Position numbers and translations under genes: made by a program. Shown in pieces: positions 2,818 to 21,171 of a DNA stretch of 27,426 nucleotides (the stretch's first letter is position 1; the number at the start of each line of letters is the position of its first letter). The stretch covers positions 1-27,426 of the IMG/VR virus record IMGVR_UViG_3300021960_000404; one strand, given 5' to 3'. The DNA comes from a virus. The notes below the pieces were generated by a model that saw only the letters and a program-made list of their open reading frames with translations, made no database searches and was not told the DNA's origin.

Positions 2818-2968
2818 AATATACGAAAGAAATCCAGATACAGATGTTATCCGTTGGAGATATGTGGATGAGTCACCTGATAAATTTGGATGGCCAAATT
2901 ATGGTAGAATATTGAATGAGAAAAAGAAAAACATACATACACGTAAACCAACACGTAATAAGAAGTAA
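2798..2968 (+). CDS. Small conserved-looking phage protein, 56 aa
   Basis: The ATG at 2798 lies inside the last codons of the deformylase gene. The 56-residue product is highly charged, begins MPKERAKIYERNPDTD and has a central IRWRY segment, a WPNYGR segment and a Lys/Arg-rich tail. The coupling (20-nt overlap with def) and the well-formed sequence suggest it is translated. Function is not recognised. Short proteins with an ERNP-D-T-x-x-I-R-W-R-like core are known to me from marine phages, but I cannot verify this. Its end overlaps the next gene (2916) by 53 nt in another frame, so one of the two could start further in. Confidence 0.6.
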   Translation: MPKERAKIYERNPDTDVIRWRYVDESPDKFGWPNYGRILNEKKKNIHTRKPTRNKK

Positions 2969-3152
2969 TAAGAAAAATGGGACAAATGATCCAGTTATTA
3001 CGGTTAAGCAAGGTAGTAAGAATACTTATTGCCATAAAGTGGCTATTAACGGACCATCCGTTGTGGTTTATGGTGGTAATGATAAGCCTTTATTACCTTG
3101 TGGTGCTCGTGTAGTTATTGAGACCGAGGCCAGCGTTGACATTATAGAATAA
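2916..3152 (+). CDS. Conserved phage hypothetical protein, 78 aa
   Basis: The 78-residue product has a basic N-terminus (HVNQHVIRSNKK), then PVITVKQG, VAINGPSVVVYGG and a C-terminal CGARVVIETEA block. This strand-rich arrangement matches, from memory, a small hypothetical protein common in marine T4-like phages whose core is NQH...PVITVK...INGPS...CGARV.IET. The function is unknown. The ATG at 2916 is the only ATG in frame upstream of the conserved core, although it overlaps the preceding small gene. The last 17 nt contain the -35 of the promoter for the next gene. The protein is probably cytoplasmic: no signal or membrane segment is visible. Confidence 0.75.
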   Translation: MRKRKTYIHVNQHVIRSNKKNGTNDPVITVKQGSKNTYCHKVAINGPSVVVYGGNDKPLLPCGARVVIETEASVDIIE

Positions 3153-3164
3153 GTGTGATATATT
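3136..3164 (+). promoter_or_regulatory. Sigma70-like promoter for the DUF4338 gene
   Basis: TTGACA (3136-3141), a 17-nt spacer and TATATT (3159-3164), with TGTGA directly before the -10. The -10 ends 7 nt before the ATG at 3172, so the expected start site is at or within a base of the start codon. No Shine-Dalgarno is visible, which predicts a leaderless mRNA. The same TGTGATATATT extended -10 occurs at 11402-11411 and 16048-16057. Confidence 0.7.
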
Positions 3165-3171
3165 ATATATT

Positions 3172-4473
3172 ATGGATAATGAAGATCAATTTGTAGAAAA
3201 TCAATATAAAGAATGGTTAGAGAATAACGATATATCTAAAGTGGAAGATATAGATGAAAAACACTTAAAAGAAAGTGTTGAAAAAGATTTAGCCTTTGTA
3301 TCTAAAATGACCGTACAAGAATATACATTGTACGAGAAGTGGATAGAAGTCCACGAAAAATATCCTACAGCCGAAACAAGTAGTTTCTTTGATGATAAAC
3401 CAGCTCTTATAGACCCACAGCAAGAGGCCTTTATTAAATCAGTTAAAAACAATATTTGGATTCCTGAGTCACCAGATGATATAGAAAAATTAGAACCTGT
3501 ATTAGAATTTACAGATGATACCGAATTAAATTATGATGGTAAAAAGAGAAGAAGTGATCTATCAGAAAAGTGGAATACATTAAGAACATTTTTATCCACT
3601 ATGAAAAACAACTCTAATATTGGTCGTCAACTATTCTTTATAGTAAAAGATAAGATTACTGAAAAGTACCTAGGCGTGATATGTATATCAGGCGACTTTA
3701 TGGATTTAACACCACGTGATAAGTCAATAGGTTGGAGTAGAGAAATTAAAACATTTAAGGGTAAGATTAATCATACAGCCATTGGTTCATCTATTGTACC
3801 AACACAGCCATTAGGTTATTCATTTACAGGTGGTAAACTATTAGCGTATTTGTGTTTAAGTGATGATGTACAGAATATATGGAAAGAAAAATATGGCGAT
3901 ACATTAGTAGGTGTAACAACCACTAGTTTATATGGTAAGGCAAAGGCTAATACATTATCTCAGTATGATGGATTAAGATTTTGGAAAAGAATGGGTTTTA
4001 CAACAGGCTCAGTATCGTTTCAACCTAGTAGGCCAGTTAGAAATATGATATGGACTTGGTTAAAGAAAAATCATACAAGAAAGTATTGGGAATGGCACGA
4101 AGCCAAAAGACCAAACGGCCAACCATTAAAAAGAGATCACAAGAATAGATCATTGAACTTTACATATTCAAAATTAGACATACCAAAAGAATACATTAGA
4201 ACTGAACATCAAAGAGGTATCTATTTTACAAGATTATATAAAAATACAGATGAGTTTTTAAGAGGTGAAATAGAACAAAAAGATTTAGTTAAAGAAATTG
4301 ATACAAGTACAGAAGCTTTGGTTAAAGTGTGGAAAGATAAACACGCTAGAAAAAGAGTTAAATCCCTAGTTGAACAAAACAGATACTCAACCGATTCTCA
4401 TTTTTATGATGATTTAATCTATTTAAATTGGGAAGAATGTAAAGAGAAGTTTTTAGGTCAAGTAGGTCGTTAA
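3172..4473 (+). CDS. DUF4338 (DruA-like) domain protein, copy 1
   Basis: This 433-residue protein has an acidic N-terminal ~110 residues and then a domain resembling DUF4338, the domain of the Druantia defence protein DruA. Matching blocks are LFFIVKDK, a core RDKSIGWS (DruA family: RDrWIGWs), SSIVPTQPLGY where the family has an RFLILP-like strand, GGKLLAYL, W..KYGD, TTSLYG and YDGLRFWKRMGFTTG. The C-terminal ~150 residues are basic and helical. A diverged paralogue lies at 20044-21171. The biochemical role of DUF4338 is not established; DNA binding or modification, or counter-defence, are possibilities. It is transcribed from a probable leaderless promoter and its stop codon directly abuts tRNA-Gly. 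The domain name is from remembered motif patterns. Confidence 0.65.
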   Translation: MDNEDQFVENQYKEWLENNDISKVEDIDEKHLKESVEKDLAFVSKMTVQEYTLYEKWIEVHEKYPTAETSSFFDDKPALIDPQQEAFIKSVKNNIWIPESPDDIEKLEPVLEFTDDTELNYDGKKRRSDLSEKWNTLRTFLSTMKNNSNIGRQLFFIVKDKITEKYLGVICISGDFMDLTPRDKSIGWSREIKTFKGKINHTAIGSSIVPTQPLGYSFTGGKLLAYLCLSDDVQNIWKEKYGDTLVGVTTTSLYGKAKANTLSQYDGLRFWKRMGFTTGSVSFQPSRPVRNMIWTWLKKNHTRKYWEWHEAKRPNGQPLKRDHKNRSLNFTYSKLDIPKEYIRTEHQRGIYFTRLYKNTDEFLRGEIEQKDLVKEIDTSTEALVKVWKDKHARKRVKSLVEQNRYSTDSHFYDDLIYLNWEECKEKFLGQVGR

Positions 4474-4612: not shown

Positions 4613-4640
4613 TTGACTTTGGAGACCTATATGATAGGAT
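4613..4640 (+). promoter_or_regulatory. Promoter-like TTGACT-N16-TAGGAT
   Basis: TTGACT (4613-4618), a 16-nt spacer and TAGGAT (4635-4640), in a GGCTTGACTTT context shared with the elements at 4717 and 7087. It lies 6 nt before the ATG of the membrane micropeptide at 4647. The AGGA inside TAGGAT could instead be a Shine-Dalgarno, so the -10 role is less sure than the -35. The rest of 4549-4646 is plain AT-rich sequence. Confidence 0.45.
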
Positions 4641-4646
4641 AACCAT

Positions 4647-4742
4647 ATGAAAGCGGCCATTTTTTTATTATTTTTTCTTTTTTTGTTTATGGCCGCTTTC
4701 TATAGAATTTTTAGGCTTGACTTTTTCAAAACTTTAATATAG
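4647..4742 (+). CDS. Putative 31-aa membrane micropeptide
   Basis: ATG at 4647, stop TAG at 4740-4742. The product starts MKAAIFLLFFLFLFMAAFYR and ends with a short Arg/Lys/Asp-containing tail: one obvious transmembrane helix of about 18 residues with a positive inside-type tail. AGGA sits 7 nt before the ATG. The nucleotide sequence is itself a perfect 12-bp inverted repeat, so the reading frame may be incidental to an RNA hairpin. Two facts favour coding: the uninterrupted hydrophobic frame and a second peptide of the same kind (7057-7158) before CobS. It stops 9 nt before the CobT-like gene. Confidence 0.45.
   Translation: MKAAIFLLFFLFLFMAAFYRIFRLDFFKTLI
4649..4700 (+). repeat. Perfect 12-bp inverted repeat with T-rich loop
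   Basis: GAAAGCGGCCAT (4649-4660) and ATGGCCGCTTTC (4689-4700) are exact reverse complements around a 28-nt loop that is almost all T. The stem is GC-rich against a very AT-rich background. It is not a textbook terminator, because the T run is in the loop and only a short AT stretch follows the stem. It begins where the predicted transcript from the 4613 promoter would start. Confidence 0.85.
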
Positions 4743-4745
4743 GAT
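4717..4745 (+). promoter_or_regulatory. Promoter-like TTGACT-N17-TAGGAT for the CobT-like gene
   Basis: TTGACT (4717-4722), a 17-nt spacer and TAGGAT (4740-4745), ending 6 nt before the ATG at 4752. This is the same TAGGAT-to-ATG distance as at 4647. The mRNA is either leaderless, or AGGA acts as a Shine-Dalgarno for a transcript from further up. The 18 nt at 4707-4724 are repeated exactly at 7077-7094. Confidence 0.5.
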
Positions 4746-4751
4746 ATACAT

Positions 4752-7055
4752 ATGACTACACTAGTAAACATTAACACTAAATCTCAATTAGCAAAACTTA
4801 TTGCTACAGAAAATCTTACAATTCAACATAACAAAGTTAAAACAGCTTCGTTTGATACTCTTAATAGAATATTAACATTACCTATCTTTAAAGTACAAAG
4901 TGGTGATGTTTATGATATGTTAATAGCACACGAATGTTCACACGCTTTATATACACCAGTTGATGGTTGGAAAAAAATACAAGATGATGATGAGTTAAGA
5001 GCTTATGTTAATGTATTAGAAGATACAAGAATAGACAAGTTAATTCAAAAGAAATATCCAGGAGTTGTTAGAAATTATCTTAATGGTTTTGATATAATGG
5101 AAAAACAAAACTTTTTTGGTATTTCAGGTAAAAATATTAATACTGGTTTAATGTTAATTGATAAAATTAATTTGAGATCAAAGTCAATGAATAGATTACC
5201 ATTCAAATTTTCTGAAATAGAAAATGATTGGATTAAAAAAGTTGATGATATTAAAACTTTTAATCAAGTTGTTAAATTAGCTAAAGAAATGTTAGATTGG
5301 CAAAAAAAACAAGTTGAACAAATGAAAAAACTTCCAAACTTTGACAATTTAGAATTAGTTGAAAATTATAACTTAGATGAAGATTTAGATTCAGAAAACA
5401 ATGTTAATACAAAAAACAAAGAAGATTCTGATAACGATACAAATGACGATCAATGGTCATCTTCTTCTAAAGATACAAATGATAATGATGAGGAATCAAA
5501 AGATGAAAATGATGATAAAAACAAAGCAGCTAACGTAGTTAATCCTGACGGTGCTGGTGGTGAACAAGGTGGTGTTGACCCTAAAAAACTTATTGTTATC
5601 ACAGATAACTCTTATGAAAAAAACAAACAATCTCTTTTTGACGAAACTATAAGTTATACCTATGTCAATTTACCAGAGCCTAACTTAAATAAAATAATGA
5701 TTACAAGTAAAGATTGGATTAAAAGATGGAAAGAAATTTCTATGAAAAAAGGAGAATACACTAATTTTAATTTAAGTAAAAGACTAGATTACATCAATTG
5801 GTTAAAAAATGACTTTAAAAAATTTAAAAATGATAATAAGAAAACAGTTATGTATCTTGTTAAAGAATTTGAAATGAAAAAGTCGGCTTCTTCTTATAGA
5901 AGAGCAACACAAAACAAAACAGGAGTTATTGATACTCTTAAATTAAAAGACTATAAATTTAGTGAAGACATCTTTAAAAAGTTAACAGTTTTACCAGACG
6001 CTAAAAACCACGGTATGATAATGTTATTAGATTGGTCTGGTTCTATGTCTGATATTATAAAACAAACAGTTGACCAATTAATGAACCTAGTATGGTTCTG
6101 CCAAAAAATTAATATACCTTTTGAAGTTTATCTATTTACAAGTGAAGCTTACGAAACAGCTAGAAGCAGATATGATGAAAATGGCGAAAGAATAATCACA
6201 GAAGAATCTTGGAATTACAAACACGGTGATGGCCAGTTTGGTGAATTTAATTTAATCAATGTTGCTAGTCACAAAATGAAAAAAATTGATTTAGACGAGT
6301 CTTTAATGTATTTACACCATATGGGACATTACTATAATACAAGATACACTAGAAGTTATTGGGATGCTGATAAAGGTTTTGAGGGTGATAGATTTGATAT
6401 TCCTAAAGAATACTACTTAGGTACAACACCTTTAAATGAATCTTTAGTTGTTATGAATAAATTGGTTCCTATTTTTAAGAAAAAATATAATATTGAAAAA
6501 ATGACTTTTATTACCTTAACAGATGGTGGTTCTGACAATAATTGGGGATTAAGAACTATCAAAAATACAGATAATGGTTTAAAATTAAATTTAGGAAAAG
6601 AATCATCAACACCAATCATCACAATAGGTAAAAAACAATATAAAAACACAAGCAAATCTTATTGGTCTGGTGGTACGGTAACAAATCTTTTATTAAAAGT
6701 TTTACAAGACCAACACAATATTAATACAATAGGTTTTTATGTAATTAAAAGATTAAATAGATTTCATACATTAGATAGATACATTGGTAATTATAAAGAT
6801 TATTCAGACAAAGAAGTTAAGATTGAAAAAATGAAAAAACAATTTTCTAAGGATAAAGTTGCTATTGGTTACCAAGAAGGCTATAACAAATACTTTATAT
6901 TAAATGGTAAAGATATGGATGTTCAAAATACTGACTTATCAGCAGTAAGTGAGGGTATGAAAACTGGTAAGATTAAACAATTATTCAGTAAATCTATGAG
7001 AGGCCGAATCGTTTCCAGAACTCTTTTAAACAAGTTTATTGAGGAGGTTGCTTAA
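4752..7055 (+). CDS. CobT-like VWA protein with HExxH motif
   Basis: 767 residues in three parts. The N-terminal part has a zinc-peptidase-like HECSH at 60-64 inside a hydrophobic helix (MLIAHECSHALY). Residues ~210-265 are a strongly acidic Asp/Asn/Glu/Lys linker. The C-terminal half is a von Willebrand A domain with the MIDAS motif D427-x-S429-x-S431 (LLDWSGSMSD) and a later TLTDGGSD strand. It resembles the CobT subunit of cobaltochelatase, and the next large gene is CobS-like, the cognate MoxR-type AAA+ partner. No CobN is in the window, so cobalt insertion is unproven; a AAA+/VWA chaperone or protease role is equally possible. The HExxH half is the odd part. Two membrane micropeptide genes flank it. 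Confidence 0.75.
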   Translation: MTTLVNINTKSQLAKLIATENLTIQHNKVKTASFDTLNRILTLPIFKVQSGDVYDMLIAHECSHALYTPVDGWKKIQDDDELRAYVNVLEDTRIDKLIQKKYPGVVRNYLNGFDIMEKQNFFGISGKNINTGLMLIDKINLRSKSMNRLPFKFSEIENDWIKKVDDIKTFNQVVKLAKEMLDWQKKQVEQMKKLPNFDNLELVENYNLDEDLDSENNVNTKNKEDSDNDTNDDQWSSSSKDTNDNDEESKDENDDKNKAANVVNPDGAGGEQGGVDPKKLIVITDNSYEKNKQSLFDETISYTYVNLPEPNLNKIMITSKDWIKRWKEISMKKGEYTNFNLSKRLDYINWLKNDFKKFKNDNKKTVMYLVKEFEMKKSASSYRRATQNKTGVIDTLKLKDYKFSEDIFKKLTVLPDAKNHGMIMLLDWSGSMSDIIKQTVDQLMNLVWFCQKINIPFEVYLFTSEAYETARSRYDENGERIITEESWNYKHGDGQFGEFNLINVASHKMKKIDLDESLMYLHHMGHYYNTRYTRSYWDADKGFEGDRFDIPKEYYLGTTPLNESLVVMNKLVPIFKKKYNIEKMTFITLTDGGSDNNWGLRTIKNTDNGLKLNLGKESSTPIITIGKKQYKNTSKSYWSGGTVTNLLLKVLQDQHNINTIGFYVIKRLNRFHTLDRYIGNYKDYSDKEVKIEKMKKQFSKDKVAIGYQEGYNKYFILNGKDMDVQNTDLSAVSEGMKTGKIKQLFSKSMRGRIVSRTLLNKFIEEVA

Positions 7056-9374: not shown

Positions 9375-9383
9375 TTAAAATAG

Positions 9384-9417
9384 AGAGGCCAAAGGAGCAT
9401 TGACTTTTTTGGCCTCT
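9384..9417 (+). repeat. Inverted repeat with promoter -35 in its loop (module 1)
   Basis: AGAGGCCAAA (9384-9393) and TTTGGCCTCT (9408-9417) are perfect reverse complements with a 14-nt loop that contains the TTGACT -35. It follows the hsp20 stop by 9 nt and could serve as a transcript 3' end or as an operator. A close copy of the whole arrangement lies at 10521-10566. Confidence 0.8.
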
Positions 9418-9428
9418 TATGATATTAT
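9400..9428 (+). promoter_or_regulatory. Sigma70-like promoter for the ParB-like gene
   Basis: TTGACT (9400-9405), a 17-nt spacer and TATTAT (9423-9428). The expected start is near 9435, 3 nt before a 9-bp hairpin. The leader is about 98 nt with AAGGAG (9520-9525) before the ATG at 9533. Confidence 0.7.
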
Positions 9429-9532: not shown

Positions 9533-10510
9533 ATGTCATATAATATACCAAACATTGAGGACTTTACATATGTTCCTCCAAAAAATCCACTACCAGGCGT
9601 TGAGTGGGTTGAAAGAAAAAAAGTTAAATTAAGTGATATTAACTATGACGCCAATCTTAATAAAATTGCCAGACTCAATGGCGTAAATCCAAGTCACACC
9701 AAAGCATTAGAAGAATCTTATAAAGCAGGTATTGATAAAGAAAAACCTTTGCCTGTATTAGAAGAAACGGCTGGTGTTTTTGAGAAGTATGCTCCTGTTG
9801 ATTATTTTCATAGAGGCAGAGCACACCAAAACTTAGGTTGGAAAGAATATGTCTTTGACATTTACAAATTTGCTGATGAAAAAGCAAGAGTTTCTTTTCA
9901 ATTATTAATGAACGATCACCCACCACAAGGCGTTGCTTCAACAGCTGATATAGAACAAGCTGGTATTAAGTTAATTCAAAAAAACAAATTAGCTAAAAAT
10001 GAGAATGAAGTTAAAAAGTGGGTGAAAATGATCGCTCCTAAAAAACACGCTTCTACCAGAGGTAATATTGTTAAAAAAATATGTCAACAAACCAAGACTA
10101 AACAAGCTTGGATGACTCTTTCTAAAAAAGATTTAGAAAAATTTTATCACAATTACGGACAAGGTAGAACTTTAGGTGGTATGTTTGACATCACAAGAGA
10201 TCAATATGGTTATGATGTACAAACAAAATATGAATCAACTTACGCTATTAGGTCTTTAAAAAGATTAGCTGAAAGTGGTAAGAAATCATATTTTCTACTA
10301 CACACCGATAGTCCTGTTAAAAACAAAGATGGCCACATTATGAGGGCTGATATGTTAAGAAGGCTAGAGGGTATCGAAGCTTCATTAAAATACTTTGTTA
10401 AATGGTACAATAAACACAAAAAAATGCCGTGGGAAATTGTTGGTTTTCTTCCACAGGAAGATGGAGAGGATCCAACTAAAATTGTATCTATTAGCAAATA
10501 CAAGAAGTAA
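9533..10510 (+). CDS. ParB/Srx-like domain protein
   Basis: 325 residues from the ATG at 9533, chosen for AAGGAG 7 nt upstream. The N-terminal ~130 residues look like a ParB/sulfiredoxin-type domain: a KVKLSDI strand, a PLPVLEE strand, then DYFHRGRAHQNLGWKEYVFDIY, where the family has a G-x-H-R-x-x-A-x-x-x-L-G block. The middle and C-terminal parts are helical and basic, consistent with DNA binding. In phages such proteins often accompany DNA methyltransferases, and a D12-class one follows here. The nuclease or NTPase activity of this family cannot be judged from sequence. Alternative: an unrelated DNA-binding protein. It has its own promoter and long leader. Confidence 0.45.
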   Translation: MSYNIPNIEDFTYVPPKNPLPGVEWVERKKVKLSDINYDANLNKIARLNGVNPSHTKALEESYKAGIDKEKPLPVLEETAGVFEKYAPVDYFHRGRAHQNLGWKEYVFDIYKFADEKARVSFQLLMNDHPPQGVASTADIEQAGIKLIQKNKLAKNENEVKKWVKMIAPKKHASTRGNIVKKICQQTKTKQAWMTLSKKDLEKFYHNYGQGRTLGGMFDITRDQYGYDVQTKYESTYAIRSLKRLAESGKKSYFLLHTDSPVKNKDGHIMRADMLRRLEGIEASLKYFVKWYNKHKKMPWEIVGFLPQEDGEDPTKIVSISKYKK

Positions 10511-10520
10511 ATAAAAAAAA

Positions 10521-10557
10521 TAGAGGCCAAGGAAAGGTTGACTTTTTTTGGCCTTTA
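10521..10557 (+). repeat. Inverted repeat with promoter -35 in its loop (module 2)
   Basis: 10521-10530 pairs with 10548-10557 (core AGGCCAA/TTGGCCT, ten pairs including one G-T). The 17-nt loop contains TTGACT. The layout matches the element at 9384-9428: GAGGCCAA, TTGACTTTTTT, GGCCT, then a -10. It follows the ParB-like stop by 10 nt. Confidence 0.75.
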
Positions 10558-10566
10558 GTATATAAT
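10538..10566 (+). promoter_or_regulatory. Near-consensus promoter for the D12 methyltransferase, probably leaderless
   Basis: TTGACT (10538-10543), a 17-nt spacer and a perfect TATAAT (10561-10566). The -10 ends 6 nt before the ATG at 10573, so transcription should begin on or next to the start codon. There is no Shine-Dalgarno-like purine run. This is the cleanest leaderless case in the window. Confidence 0.8.
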
Positions 10567-10572
10567 AAAATT

Positions 10573-11397
10573 ATGTTTAGTTATCTAGGTGGTAAAAAAT
10601 TTCAAGCAAAGTGGATTGCCTCAAACTTTCCAAAACACTCTACTTATGTTGAACCTTTTGGTGGTGCTTATTGGGTTTATTTTGTGGCCAATCATCAAAT
10701 AGATCAAGCTCACACAAATGTATATAATGACTTCAATAAAGATATAGCTAATATATTTTACTGTGCCAGACATAAAGATAGAGAATTTTCAAAATCTTTA
10801 TTATCATATAAACCACAAATTAAAGAAACCTTTAATCAATTTAAATCAGATTTAATACCATTCAATACAGATTTTGATTTAGGTGATGTTGAAAGAGCTA
10901 CAAAATATATTTACTTACAAACACAAAGTTTTAGTGGTGATACTTTAAATGAAAAAACAAAATTTGTTGATTTAAAAGGTAAATATAAATCAAAATATCA
11001 ACACTTCACAGATAAGATTAATGATAAAAAATGGTTATATTTTATTAAAGGTATAACTCATATTCACAACGAATCGTTTGAAACAATTATTGATAAGTAC
11101 GATAATGAAGATACATTATTTTATGTTGATCCACCATACTATAAAATGGAAGACTATTATGTAAAAGACTTTCAAAGAAGCCAACATTTAGACCTGGCCA
11201 ATAAATTAAAACAAATAAAAGGTAAGTTTGTATTATCGTATTATGACTTTCCAGACTTACAAAAATGGTTTCCAAAAGACGAATATACTTGGATTGAAAA
11301 ACAATTTAACAAACAAAATGCTAGTAAAAACAAAGGTGCTGGCAAAGGTAAAGAATTATTAATAATGAATTACAAACCAGCATTGACTTTAGAGTGA
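10573..11397 (+). CDS. dam: DNA adenine N6-methyltransferase, D12/Dam class
   Basis: 274 residues. The N-terminus MFSYLGGK is the S-adenosylmethionine-contacting start of the D12 class. VEPFGGA near residue 30 is motif I, and VDPPYY (catalytic D186-P-P-Y) is motif IV; the target-recognition region lies between. It transfers a methyl group to adenine N6 in a specific site. GATC is typical of T4 Dam but cannot be read from sequence. Likely roles are protection from host restriction or marking phage DNA. A second, unrelated adenine methyltransferase (MT-A70) is at 19440. It has a private, probably leaderless, promoter. The end contains the -35 of the next promoter. Confidence 0.92.
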   Translation: MFSYLGGKKFQAKWIASNFPKHSTYVEPFGGAYWVYFVANHQIDQAHTNVYNDFNKDIANIFYCARHKDREFSKSLLSYKPQIKETFNQFKSDLIPFNTDFDLGDVERATKYIYLQTQSFSGDTLNEKTKFVDLKGKYKSKYQHFTDKINDKKWLYFIKGITHIHNESFETIIDKYDNEDTLFYVDPPYYKMEDYYVKDFQRSQHLDLANKLKQIKGKFVLSYYDFPDLQKWFPKDEYTWIEKQFNKQNASKNKGAGKGKELLIMNYKPALTLE

Positions 11398-11411
11398 GTT
11401 TGTGATATATT
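11383..11411 (+). promoter_or_regulatory. Sigma70-like promoter for tRNA-like element and gp45
   Basis: TTGACT (11383-11388), a 17-nt spacer and TATATT (11406-11411), with the extended TGTGA. The expected start site is about 11418, which coincides with the 5' base of the tRNA-like element at 11419. The operon gp45-44-62-regA-rimK-like follows. Confidence 0.75.
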
Positions 11412-11418
11412 TAATAAT

Positions 11419-11492
11419 GCGGATGTCGTATAAAAGTATTATGATAGGTTTCCAACCTGTAGAAGATTGGGCAGTACAATCCATCCGCTCCA
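11419..11492 (+). tRNA. Degenerate tRNA-Gly-like element (anticodon UCC)
   Basis: Seven perfect acceptor pairs, GCGGATG (11419-11425) with CATCCGC (11482-11488), then T and an encoded CCA (11490-11492). The anticodon stem ATAGG/CCTGT holds the 7-nt loop TTTCCAA with TCC at 11451-11453. The T stem GATTG/CAATC is perfect, but the T loop is GGCAGTA instead of a TTCRANN-type loop. The D stem has only about three pairs and its loop (AAAAGTA) lacks the GG pair. U73 and the anticodon match tRNA-Gly. It may be a divergent functional tRNA, a decaying one, or a tRNA mimic at the 5' end of the gp45 mRNA. Confidence 0.75.
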
Positions 11493-16732: not shown

Positions 16733-16808
16733 GGGGGATTAGCTCAGCTGGGAGAGCGCCTGATTTGCATTCAGGAGGTCAGCGGTTCGATCCCGCTATC
16801 CTCCACCA
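16733..16808 (+). tRNA. tRNA-Ala (anticodon UGC)
   Basis: A full cloverleaf with encoded CCA (16806-16808). The acceptor is GGGGGAT with ATCCTCC (one G-T). The D stem is GCTC/GAGC with GGG in the loop. The anticodon stem CCTGA/TCAGG has loop TTTGCAT and TGC at 16766-16768. The T arm has the canonical TTCGATC loop. It reads like an ordinary alphaproteobacterial tRNA-Ala, with GC content far above its surroundings. It lies 9 nt upstream of gp43. Confidence 0.97.
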
Positions 16809-16817
16809 AACTAAATT

Positions 16818-19307
16818 ATGAACTTTTATAAATCAGTAATTGAACACAAAGGTAAACTTCTTATTAGAGGCATACACGGTGGCAAAGACTATAAAGAAAA
16901 AATAGACTTTGGTCCTACTCTATATGCTTTAACACAACAAGAAACTGAATATAAAAATCTACAAGGTCAATATTTAAAACCAATCACATTTAAAAACATA
17001 GACGCTGCTCGTAAGTTTAGACGAGAAGTTGTAACTCAAAATTCTCCTATTTACGGTTTAGAAAGATACCATTATCAATATATTGGTAAAGAGTTTCCTC
17101 AGGAAATTGAATGGGATAAGAACTTCATTAAAATCTTTACACTCGACATTGAAACGGCCTGTGAATCTGGTTTTCCAGATGTAGAAAATCCAATAGAAGA
17201 ATTACTTTGTATTACTGTTAAAAATCAATCTAACAAACAAATTATAACTTGGGGTGTTGGTGATTATAAAACTGATAGAACAGATATAACTTATATCAAA
17301 TGTAAGAATGAAAATCATTTACTATTTGAATTTATGAAGTTTTGGATTAAGAACTATCCAGATGTTATTACAGGTTGGAATACAAAATTCTTTGACTTAC
17401 CTTATTTGATGAATAGAATTAAAATGATTGCTGGTGATAAAGTAGCCAACAAGATGTCGCCTTGGAACTTAATTCATAGAGAGGAAGTTGTTGTTAGAGG
17501 TAGACCTCAAACAGTATATACTTTATATGGTATTACTAATTTAGATTACTTAGATTTATACAAATGGTTTATACCAACAAGGCAAGAGAGTTATAAACTA
17601 GACTTTATTGGTGAACTAGAACTTGGCCGTGGTAAAGACGAAATGCCATATGATACATTTAAAGAATGGTATACAAAAGACTTTCAATCATTTATTGATT
17701 ACAATATACAAGACGTAGAAATCGTTGATGGATTAGAAGACAAATTAGGTTTAATTGACTTATCATTAACTGTTGCTTATGAAAGTAAAGTAAACTATGG
17801 TGATATATTTTCACAAGTTAGAGTATGGGATACTTTGATAGCAAATCATTTAATGAAAAAAAATATTTGTGTACCTCCAAGAGAAGAACATTTAAAAGAA
17901 ACAAAATATGAAGGCGCTTATGTAAAAGAGCCTCAACTTGGTCAACACAAATGGGTGGTGTCGTTTGATATTAACTCACTATATCCTCATATCATAATTC
18001 AATATAATATTTCTCCAGAAAAAATTATTGGTGTGAAGTCATCTGGTGTTTCAGTTAATAAAATGTTAACTCAATCTACACCACTCGCTCATTTAAAAAC
18101 GGAAGGTGCTTGTATAACTCCTAACGGTGCTTTATTTAAAACAGACAATCAAGGTTTCTTGCCTGAAATGATGGAAACAATGTACAATGAACGAGTCATA
18201 TACAAGAAACGAATGTTGAAAGCAAAAAAAGAATATGAAAAAACAAAAGAACATAAACTTGTAAGAGAAATATCTCGTTGTCATAATATTCAATGGGCAA
18301 GAAAGATTGCCTTAAACTCAGCTTATGGTGCTGTAGGTAATCAATACTTTAGATATTATGATGTAAGACAAGCAAGTGCTATTACAACAGCAGGTCAATT
18401 TATTATTCGTTTTATTGAGGAAAAGGTAAATGAATATCTAAACAGAATATTAAAGACACACGATAAGATAGATTATATTGTGGCTTCAGATACAGATTCA
18501 ATTTATGTTACACTTGATAAGTTAGTACAAAAGACTTGTGAGGGTAAAGATAATGAACAGATATGTAATTTCTTAAACAAGGTTGTTGACAGTAGAATAG
18601 AACCATTTTTAGAAAAATGTTTTAATGAATTATCTGATTATACAAATGCTTTTAAAAATTGTATGGTGATGAAACGAGAAGTTATCGCCAACAAAGGCAT
18701 ATGGGTGGCTAAAAAGAGATATATGTTAAATGTGTTAGATGAGGAAGGTGTTAGACTAGCAAATCCTAAATTAAAAATTATGGGTATTGAGGCAGTTAAA
18801 TCATCAACACCACAAGTTTGTAGAGGTAAGATTAAAGAAGCTATTAAGATTATAATGTCTAAAGAACAATCTGATTTACATAAGTTTATTGCTGACTTTA
18901 AAAAAGAATTTTTTAGTATGACTGCTGAACAAATATCTTTTCCTAGGTCTTGTAATAATATGAGAAAATATAAAGATAGTAATAATATCTTTATCAAAGG
19001 TACACCAATACACGTTAAAGGTGCTTTGATTTACAATCATCAACTAAAACAATTTGGTTTAGGCCGTAAATATCCACACATACAAGAAGGTGACAAGATT
19101 AAGTTTTTAAAACTAATTGAGGCTAATCCATTTAAGTTTGATGTAATTAGTTATGTGACCAAACTTCCAAAAGAATTTAAACTACAACAATATATTGATT
19201 ATGAAACACAATTTGAAAAAACATTTTTAGACCCTATGAGATTTATATTACAAGCAATTGGTTGGGAACACGAACAAAAGGCTAGTTTAGAGTCATTTTT
19301 TGGATGA
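16818..19307 (+). CDS. 43: DNA polymerase gp43 (family B)
   Basis: 829 residues (T4 gp43 is 898). Exonuclease motifs: Exo I TLDIETACESG (D110, E112), Exo II GWNTKFFDLPYL and Exo III YNIQDVEIVDGLE. Polymerase motifs: A SFDINSLYPH (D384), B ALNSAYGAVGN and C ASDTDSIYV (D558, D560). Both activities therefore look intact. It copies the phage genome with clamp gp45. The start is ATG at 16818, 9 nt after the tRNA-Ala CCA end, with no Shine-Dalgarno; after tRNA processing the message would have an almost absent leader. The stop overlaps a membrane-peptide gene. Confidence 0.98.
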   Translation: MNFYKSVIEHKGKLLIRGIHGGKDYKEKIDFGPTLYALTQQETEYKNLQGQYLKPITFKNIDAARKFRREVVTQNSPIYGLERYHYQYIGKEFPQEIEWDKNFIKIFTLDIETACESGFPDVENPIEELLCITVKNQSNKQIITWGVGDYKTDRTDITYIKCKNENHLLFEFMKFWIKNYPDVITGWNTKFFDLPYLMNRIKMIAGDKVANKMSPWNLIHREEVVVRGRPQTVYTLYGITNLDYLDLYKWFIPTRQESYKLDFIGELELGRGKDEMPYDTFKEWYTKDFQSFIDYNIQDVEIVDGLEDKLGLIDLSLTVAYESKVNYGDIFSQVRVWDTLIANHLMKKNICVPPREEHLKETKYEGAYVKEPQLGQHKWVVSFDINSLYPHIIIQYNISPEKIIGVKSSGVSVNKMLTQSTPLAHLKTEGACITPNGALFKTDNQGFLPEMMETMYNERVIYKKRMLKAKKEYEKTKEHKLVREISRCHNIQWARKIALNSAYGAVGNQYFRYYDVRQASAITTAGQFIIRFIEEKVNEYLNRILKTHDKIDYIVASDTDSIYVTLDKLVQKTCEGKDNEQICNFLNKVVDSRIEPFLEKCFNELSDYTNAFKNCMVMKREVIANKGIWVAKKRYMLNVLDEEGVRLANPKLKIMGIEAVKSSTPQVCRGKIKEAIKIIMSKEQSDLHKFIADFKKEFFSMTAEQISFPRSCNNMRKYKDSNNIFIKGTPIHVKGALIYNHQLKQFGLGRKYPHIQEGDKIKFLKLIEANPFKFDVISYVTKLPKEFKLQQYIDYETQFEKTFLDPMRFILQAIGWEHEQKASLESFFG

Positions 19308-19453: not shown

Positions 19454-19988
19454 TATTAGAAACAAATACAAAGTAATTTATGCAGACCCTCCGTGGTATT
19501 TTAAATCGTATTCGAAAAAAGGAGAAGGAAGAAACGCCACTAGGCATTATTCTTGCCTTAGTTTATCTGACATCATTCTTCTTCCTATTAACTCTATTGC
19601 TGAGAGCGATTCCACCCTTATAATGTGGGTAACCGATCCCTTTCTTCAAAAAGCATTTGAAGTTATAGAGGCTTGGGGTTTCACTTATAAGACAGTTGCT
19701 TTTACTTGGGTTAAACAAAACAAAAACAATCCTAATTATTTTAAAGGTTTAGGTTATTGGACACGTGCTAATCCTGAAATGGCATTGTTAGCAACTAAAG
19801 GTAAACCTAAACGAATCAATAAAGACGTTAATCAATTAGTTGTATCTCCACGTAGAGAACACTCCAGAAAACCAGACCAGATGTACGAACACATTGAACG
19901 ATTATTGGAGGGCCCCTACATTGAACTGTTTGCTAGAAATAAAAGACCAGGTTGGGATAGTTGGGGTAACGAAGTAGGTAAGTTTTGA
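19440..19988 (+). CDS. MT-A70 family adenine N6-methyltransferase
   Basis: 182 residues. The catalytic D16-P-P-W19 occurs in YKVIYADPPWYF near the N-terminus, followed by STLIMWVTDPFLQKAFEVI, VAFTWVK, the GYWTRANPEMALLA-type segment and a C-terminal EHSRKPDQMYEHIERL and PYIELFARNKRPGW block. These are diagnostic for the MT-A70 family. It methylates adenine N6 in DNA (or RNA in eukaryotes). The target is unknown. It is a beta-class circular-permuted fold, unrelated to the D12 enzyme at 10573. The start overlaps the upstream membrane-protein gene. GC content is slightly above its neighbours in the first 200 nt. Confidence 0.95.
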   Translation: MDISNIRNKYKVIYADPPWYFKSYSKKGEGRNATRHYSCLSLSDIILLPINSIAESDSTLIMWVTDPFLQKAFEVIEAWGFTYKTVAFTWVKQNKNNPNYFKGLGYWTRANPEMALLATKGKPKRINKDVNQLVVSPRREHSRKPDQMYEHIERLLEGPYIELFARNKRPGWDSWGNEVGKF

Positions 19989-19996
19989 TTTTAGAC

Positions 19997-20025
19997 TTGA
20001 TTTTATCATTAGGATATGTTATAGT
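19997..20025 (+). promoter_or_regulatory. Sigma70-like promoter for DUF4338 copy 2
   Basis: TTGATT (19997-20002), a 17-nt spacer and TATAGT (20020-20025). The expected start near 20032 leaves a ~12-nt leader to the ATG at 20044 with no Shine-Dalgarno. Confidence 0.6.
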
Positions 20026-20043
20026 AGTATATCTTTTTATAAT

Positions 20044-21171
20044 ATGGATATTAGTGAAATGGAACAAAGAAGAACATTAACAAAAGAACAAGCTTTATAT
20101 TGTGCTGGTATATTCAATGACTATTTTAGTCAGTTTGATAGAATAGATCAGTATATGAGAGATCAAAAGCTTTCTCAATTAGAAACAAACAATTCAGCTG
20201 GTACATTATTTGATGATGGTCCTGAAGAAGATTTATTTAATGATAATGATATGCCACCTGAAAAAATGAACTTTGAAATTAAAGTTATAGTCAATGAAAG
20301 ATTTGATAAACTTTTAAATATGGTTTCTTCTCACACAAATATGTCAAGTGTTCCAGGTAAGAACTTAAAGATAGTTGTTATGGAAACTAACACACAAAAA
20401 ATAGTTGGATTTATTAGACTATCATCACCAGTTATTAATATGAAACCACGTAATGAACTATTAGGTCAAGTACCAGATTTGAAATCATTTAACAAAACTT
20501 CTATTATGGGTTTTGTAATTGTGCCTGTGCAACCTTTTGGTTTTAATTATTTGGGTGGTAAATTATTAGCGGCCGTTTGTTGTTCACACGAAGTAAGAGA
20601 AATGATGAACAGTAAATATGATATGAACTTAGCTCTATTTGAAACGACATCTTTATATGGTAATAGTAAATCATCAAGTCAATATGATGGTATGAAACCA
20701 TTTTTAAGATATAAAGGTTTAACAGATAGTGATTTTATTCCTTTGATACACGGCAAACCTTACCACGACTTATCTAACTTTGTTGAAAACAATGTAGGCA
20801 AATTAGTTAAAGATGACGCTTCAAGTAAAAAGTTAAAACTTACAACAGCCATCATTGGTTTAATTAAAAGAAGTTTAGATGGTACTGATTTAGAGAATTT
20901 TAATACAACTATTAATAACGCTAAAAAATTAACTGAAAGAAAAAGATATTACTCTTGTAATTATGGAATTAAAAACTATATTAATATTGTAAATGGTAAA
21001 GAAACCGAGATTGTTAAAGACGACAATTACGATAAACATTACCTAAATAATATAACGGACTGGTGGAAAAATAAAGCAACCAATCGTTATAATAATCTTA
21101 AAAATGAAAATCGTTTGAGGAGAGAACTTGAAATATGGTCACCAAGTGCACAGATACAAATTATCAGATGA
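20044..21171 (+). CDS. DUF4338 (DruA-like) domain protein, copy 2
   Basis: 375 residues, a diverged paralogue of the protein at 3172. Shared blocks are a LKIVVMETNTQKIVGFIRL strand pair, VPVQPFGFNYLGGKLLAAV (copy 1: VPTQPLGYSFTGGKLLAYL), CSHEVREMMNSKYDM, ETTSLYGNSK and SQYDGMKPFLRYKGLT (copy 1: SQYDGLRFWKRMGFT). It lacks the RDxxIGW block, which reads PRNELLGQV here, so the two copies have diverged at one of the family's most conserved sites. The acidic N-terminus and basic helical C-terminus are kept. Function is unknown. Its end overlaps the next gene by 37 nt. Confidence 0.6.
   Translation: MDISEMEQRRTLTKEQALYCAGIFNDYFSQFDRIDQYMRDQKLSQLETNNSAGTLFDDGPEEDLFNDNDMPPEKMNFEIKVIVNERFDKLLNMVSSHTNMSSVPGKNLKIVVMETNTQKIVGFIRLSSPVINMKPRNELLGQVPDLKSFNKTSIMGFVIVPVQPFGFNYLGGKLLAAVCCSHEVREMMNSKYDMNLALFETTSLYGNSKSSSQYDGMKPFLRYKGLTDSDFIPLIHGKPYHDLSNFVENNVGKLVKDDASSKKLKLTTAIIGLIKRSLDGTDLENFNTTINNAKKLTERKRYYSCNYGIKNYINIVNGKETEIVKDDNYDKHYLNNITDWWKNKATNRYNNLKNENRLRRELEIWSPSAQIQIIR

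Follow-up and report, generated by a model that had tools for sequence, protein, structure and literature searches.

Three genes of a T4-like ocean phage very probably give rise to leaderless mRNAs, and the layout that points to this recurs in related phages behind two kinds of promoter, those of the sigma70 type and those of the phage late type. The window, by which we mean the whole stretch of DNA analysed, is the 27,426-base IMG/VR virus record IMGVR_UViG_3300021960_000404, and the three genes begin with the ATGs at 3172, 4752 and 10573. Strong sigma70-type promoters at 3136, 4717 and 10538 most likely start RNA synthesis at, or within 1-2 nt of, the A of the respective start codon; the mRNAs for the first DruA/DUF4338 protein, the VWA protein and the D12 methyltransferase would then be leaderless, and ribosomes would recognize their 5'-terminal AUG directly to begin translation, with no Shine-Dalgarno (SD) pairing.

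The phage belongs to a group of T4-like ocean phages that are kin of SAR11-infecting phages. In the sliding-clamp region it shares 77% identity with Pelagibacter phage Mosig EXVC030M and 72% with HTVC008M, and its gene content resembles theirs, including a 46-type recombination gene, DUF4338, the VWA 'peptidase', CobS, S21 and Hsp20, as well as clamp, clamp loader, RegA-type, gp43, UvsX-type and gp41-type genes. The phage-encoded ribosomal protein bS21 (PF01165; 8441-8650, + strand), a protein with a role in translation initiation, has a TTG start after a strong SD. Two DruA paralogues (PF14236, the family of a Druantia defence component) are also phage-encoded, at 3172-4473 and 20044-21171.

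The first promoter, TTGACA-N17-TATATT (3136..3164; -35 at 3136, -10 at 3159-3164, extended by a TGN, here TGA), overlaps the 3' end of the preceding ORF (2916-3152) and ends 7 nt before the ATG of the DUF4338/DruA-family gene (3172..4473), whose product matches PF14236 (E=5e-18; DUF4338 is now DruA in Pfam); this and the other promoters, hairpins, tRNAs and promoter-proximal genes located below are on the + strand. TTGACT-N17-TAGGAT (4717..4745; -35 at 4717, -10 at 4740-4745) stands 6 nt before the ATG of the VWA/CobT-like 'peptidase' gene (4752..7055), and TTGACT-N17-TATAAT (10538..10566; -35 at 10538, -10 at 10561-10566) stands 6 nt before that of the D12 N6-adenine DNA methyltransferase gene (10573..11397). 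A further promoter, TTGACT-N16-TAGGAT (4613..4640; -35 at 4613, -10 at 4635-4640), precedes by 6 nt a small membrane-type ORF (4647..4742) that is likewise predicted to be leaderless; this ORF sits between two promoters, its stop TAG forming part of the next -10, TAGGAT, its RNA has a long 5' hairpin (fold z -6.5), and its frame and C-terminus are kept in three relatives (L061, L005 and L063) at ~44% identity. The spacings given for these four starts in the first-pass annotation were exact, and upstream of 3172, 4752 and 10573 there is no SD; the start at 4647 has the spacing claimed for it, but belongs to an ORF of just 31 codons with a -35 spacer of 16.

That annotation had taken the distance from -10 to ATG as its criterion, which on its own did not discriminate: in this AT-rich window 68 matches to a -10 lie 5-8 nt before an ATG (614 ATGs) where ~55 are expected, a difference that is not significant, and a survey of such distances yields no significant excess unless a -35 is also required. 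With the -35 required, by means of a promoter PWM, three long-ORF genes of the window have a promoter at 5-8 nt, against ~0.12 expected (Poisson p ~3e-4); the three sites stand out because a TTGACA or TTGACT -35 is placed 17 nt before the -10. The proposal of leaderless or near-leaderless initiation as a regular mode is accordingly well supported, with strong comparative evidence given below, for these three genes and not for all six that had been named.

Promoters of the same type also serve other starts. TTGACA-N17-TATATT in the segment 16029..16078 is followed by an SD leader, with the ATG (16078) 20 nt past the -10, and a promoter at 9383..9428 serves an SD-led gene at 9533. A strong promoter, TTGACT-N17-TATATT at 11383, reads directly into a tRNA (11419-11489; the whole arrangement spans 11383..11489) and has no leaderless ORF behind it; it was dropped as a leaderless case, as it drives the tRNA instead. 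This tRNA, which scored 37 bits against an Rfam cut-off of 29 and was missed by ARAGORN, has the anticodon loop TTTCCAA and is likely Gly-UCC; a similar arrangement of promoter and tRNA-like sequence is present in Mosig and other relatives. Since promoters of one type thus precede leaderless-type starts, SD-led genes and a tRNA, the window phage uses both leaderless-type and SD-led modes.

The layout was then followed in 3.4 Mb of relatives, among them the cultured pelagiphages Mosig and HTVC008M (the latter surveyed outside 50,001-60,000). The relatives are IMG/VR loci encoding homologues of the D12 enzyme, the VWA protein and both DUF4338 proteins, so that these bait families are over-weighted in raw counts; removal of near-duplicates is the sole correction for kinship in the counts given here, and long ORFs were identified by mechanical calling. 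At 25 of 249 non-redundant TTGAC[AT] promoters a frame of 60 aa or more opened with an ATG 5-8 nt past the -10, compared with 7 of 999 controls in which the -35 word had been permuted (Fisher p=1e-12). After clustering, the ATG lay at exactly 6 nt in 17 of 148 clusters (2.9 expected per position), and a gene-centred scan with the PWM, over 464 non-redundant genes, found 7, 5, 4 and 4 promoters at 6, 7, 8 and 9 nt, respectively, over a background that averaged 0.33 per position at 31-99 nt. T4, as a control for TTGAC promoters, contained no such sites and was hence uninformative. An SD-like motif was present at none of 16 genes with a promoter at 5-8 nt, versus 19 of 32 genes with one at 18-60 nt, and the long frames at 5-8 nt started with ATG (25), GTG (0) or TTG (2). 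The base at -1 was T in 23 of the 25 cases at 5-8 nt and in 50 of 135 elsewhere, which fits a pyrimidine-purine initiator placed, on this prediction, at the A of the AUG. Starts with AUG, T at -1 and no SD are together marks of a 5'-terminal AUG.

A parallel arrangement was found at promoters of the gp55 late type, where NATAAATA is followed after 5 nt by ATG. In the relatives, Mosig and HTVC008M, 27 of 283 non-redundant copies of NATAAATA were followed by a long frame whose ATG lay precisely 5 nt on, with 1.43 expected per position, none at 4 nt and two at 6 nt; an SD-like motif accompanied one of the 27. The late motif of T4, TATAAATA, spans -13 to -6 (PMC1524935), and the A of an ATG 5 nt past NATAAATA would therefore be +1. 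The exact 5-nt spacing was absent from T4 (0/62) and from the 100 kb covered in each of the cyanophages P-SSM2 (0/24) and S-SSM4 (0/12), and frames behind the late motif in T4 begin at least 14 nt on. With one mismatch allowed in the late motif, no clear peak was seen across the whole viral set. The layout recurs upstream of a gp3-like gene in 13 distinct upstream contexts; a distant clade of this gene, reached through DUF4338 (L153-L180 range), has a CTAAATA late-type motif and a leader with an AAGGAG-type SD. Predicted late starts equal the annotated ones at HTVC008M gp010, gp014, gp025, gp053 and gp063 and at Mosig_00082 and 00139, and agreement extends to HTVC008M gp094 and Mosig 00122 and 00125 when all predicted starts are considered. 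Motifs of the TATAAATA type occur in relatives and cultured phages alike; the window holds two copies, neither of them leaderless, and the late sigma factor gp55, annotated in Mosig (00029) and HTVC008M (gp099), is outside the window fragment. That two promoter classes of differing geometry would each place an AUG at its own predicted +1 is the strongest single argument for leaderless initiation.

The same spacings bear on the possibility that these RNAs carry a very short leader of 2-8 nt because RNA polymerase initiates slightly upstream of the AUG, by a few bases, or at more than one site. In favour of such a leader, sigma70 start points commonly vary by 1-3 nt, and some genes stand at 9-13 nt; in HTVC008M the distances are 12 nt for DNA polymerase, 11 for primase, 12 for VWA and 11 for CobS. 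The commonest distance, 6 nt, with its T at -1, together with the narrow 5-nt peak of the late promoters, points instead to the A of AUG as +1, and we consider a short leader unlikely as the general account, while granting it a small share of the probability.

Leaderless transcription from the D12 promoter would begin within an unusually compact junction, in which terminator-like hairpin, promoter and start codon fall within ~55 bp. The hairpin (10521..10557; arms 10521-10535/10543-10557, loop 10536-10542) folds at -21.7 kcal/mol (z -6.5) and holds the -35 in its loop; in the D12 family the right arm is followed by T-rich or A/T sequence ahead of the -10. Its stem appears in 14 distinct versions, in which several positions have changed on the two sides in a compensatory way; in a comparison of related sequences whose stems had been chosen because they pair, 288 sequence pairs with double changes were counted, against a shuffle mean of 53 and maximum of 114. 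Stems were compared in an explicit register, where 100% pairing arises by construction and the double changes alone are evidence; pair counts from MAFFT alignments were dropped, because differences in loop length shifted the register. The most economical reading is that two elements coincide here, an intrinsic terminator for the preceding gene and the promoter for the following one, the -35 lying in the loop and the right arm and U-run serving as spacer, so that upstream transcripts would end at the hairpin, and -10 and ATG follow directly after it. At the D12 gene the element is present or absent according to gene context. Across promoters, the -35 lay inside a hairpin loop in 24 of 284 cases and in 18 of 614 controls, SD-led genes included; the window's second example, a contrast case, is the promoter of the SD-led gene at 9533 (hairpin arms 9383-9396/9405-9418, -35 at 9400-9405, -10 TATTAT at 9423-9428; fold z -6.8).

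It could be argued that the promoters are weak or irrelevant, and that translation, by coupling or by scanning 70S ribosomes, uses polycistronic RNA from upstream read-through. The genes do lie in co-oriented arrays, SD-like motifs are found at only ~30-40% of starts overall, and gp43 overlaps the upstream stop without an SD in many relatives. Against read-through, the hairpin at 10521-10557 resembles an intrinsic terminator, and -35 and -10 are conserved at the D12 gene while the stem around them changes; we regard this account as quite improbable.

Conservation at orthologues further favours leaderless starts, a layout that in pelagimyophage-like relatives would be used by a minority of genes and kept from one orthologue to the next. 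In most D12 relatives TTGACTTT is retained, followed by a spacer rich in T, a -10 close to TATAAT and an ATG at 5-8 nt, strong comparative support for the proposal that this methyltransferase is made from a leaderless mRNA. D12 relatives in other neighbourhoods have no promoter; those in L004-L010 and L035 have a GTG start after AAAGGTGA-type, purine-rich SD-like sequence, and those in L050-L055 mostly an SD-like sequence. Nearly all VWA relatives, down to ~50% protein identity, have a promoter 6-11 nt from the first ATG (8 nt past the -10 at Mosig_00020), its position held even where the N-terminal residues differ. At the first DUF4338 gene the promoter is kept in close relatives only (L135, L140, L143-L146 and L171).

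Were the real start a downstream, SD-led codon, the 5' AUG would be incidental or a regulatory uORF. Deep VWA relatives (L094, L098, L110-L112, L117 and L131) do show a 5'-proximal ATG, then AAGGA, then a second in-frame ATG; they may have a dual start or upstream AUG, and some may be SD-led from the second ATG. In the window, by contrast, the next in-frame ATGs fall within conserved sequence, and the D12 product matches PF02086 (E=2e-20) from residue 4, with FSYLGGK immediately after the ATG, which makes a downstream start very improbable indeed. Chance, in the sense that -10-like hexamers lie near ATGs everywhere in an AT-rich genome, can account for the -10 matches taken alone, but has virtually no prospect of explaining the sites once -35 and spacing are required, or the late promoters.

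Two further starts had been grouped with these. The first-pass annotation counted both DUF4338 genes as leaderless or near-leaderless, which the comparison bears out for the first; the second (20044) was rejected, because its ATG is not conserved and homology begins near residue 10. Its would-be promoter, TTGATT-N17-TATAGT (19997..20044 including the ATG), has a -10 that ends 18 nt before the ATG and overlaps a conserved small single-TM ORF (19983-20081), which in turn overlaps the beginning of this second DruA/DUF4338 gene and for which relative L188 encodes MELTLSILYVIMIYLFVIFLLYLWNNEKP; in other relatives (L202-L223) the second DUF4338 gene has TTGACA, a -10, a 6-nt gap and then ATGAAAAC. 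The gp43 ATG is indeed 9 nt past the encoded CCA of a tRNA-Ala (tRNA, gap and ATG together span 16733..16818), as had been noted, a layout shared by L017, L018 and L183; elsewhere gp43 has a promoter a few nt upstream (L222, L261, L051 and L054) or overlaps the upstream stop. Its leader would be short only if the transcript were processed at the tRNA 3' end, a case apart from promoter-based leaderlessness.

We assume that the sigma70-type promoters are recognized by the host sigma factor. A bS21-based search of genome contigs found no SAR11, and the host set comprised 60 genomes from one family, presumed to be Pelagibacteraceae, that were located by way of the SAM-V riboswitch. In these 60 genomes the exact-consensus promoter was no commoner than its reversed control, and 7 host promoters lay 5-8 nt before an ATG versus 2 at 25-28 nt, with about as many in the reversed controls, so that enrichment was not clear. 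In this comparison, which covered exact-consensus promoters, the leaderless layout looks like a phage trait. A wider idea, to which we give only a slim chance, is that ribosomes of the infected cell, perhaps altered by the phage bS21, favour leaderless early (sigma70-type) and late (gp55-type) phage RNAs over the mRNA of the host, the phage RNAs then forming a translational regulon.

The findings condense into two rules, TTGACW-N17-TANNNT-N6-ATG and NATAAATA-N5-ATG, each of which jointly marks a promoter, a predicted start site and a start codon; for the two cultured phages they predict 5' ends that are open to test, and they can correct gene starts. These rules matter because pelagiphages are among the most abundant marine viruses and their middle and late promoters had eluded a dedicated genome study: pelagimyophage genomics on the same phage group reported that prediction of middle and late promoters failed, in a text from which the word 'Shine' is absent (PMC7029224). 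By the two rules, this T4-like lineage does not keep to the T4 arrangement of a leader with an SD.

Bacterial leaderless mRNAs, such as lambda cI and those of alphaproteobacteria, share with the genes described here a 5'-terminal AUG, the lack of an SD and the use of AUG over GUG and UUG; all 171 leaderless mRNAs mapped in Sinorhizobium meliloti are AUG-initiated (PMC3616915), and a strong AUG preference characterizes bacterial leaderless translation (review PMC9031893). The difference is that here the mode is proposed for lytic T4-like phages, in several genes of the early type as well as the late type, and is kept at orthologues across a phage group. The late promoters have the motif of those of T4 (TATAAATA, gp55/gp33/gp45), and genes for the late sigma factor are present in both Mosig and HTVC008M; frames in T4 begin well past the motif, often with an SD, whereas in pelagimyophages the ATG is often exactly at the predicted +1. 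Among known elements the hairpin-promoter comes closest to the PeSL of T4-like phages, studied reportedly by Arbiol (2010) and Comeau (2014). PeSLs are cited as composite promoter-terminator motifs (in PMC4503421); like the hairpins at 9383 and 10521 they join a promoter to a stem-loop in an intergenic region, and, as far as a comparison by citation goes, the present elements differ in having the -35 within the loop and, at the D12 gene, the start codon after the -10 without a leader. Leaderless RNAs and composite promoter-terminators are both known; what appears to be new is that a T4-like phage group would routinely employ leaderlessness at its two classes of promoter, and one start rule common to host-type and phage late promoters is unusual for this phage family.
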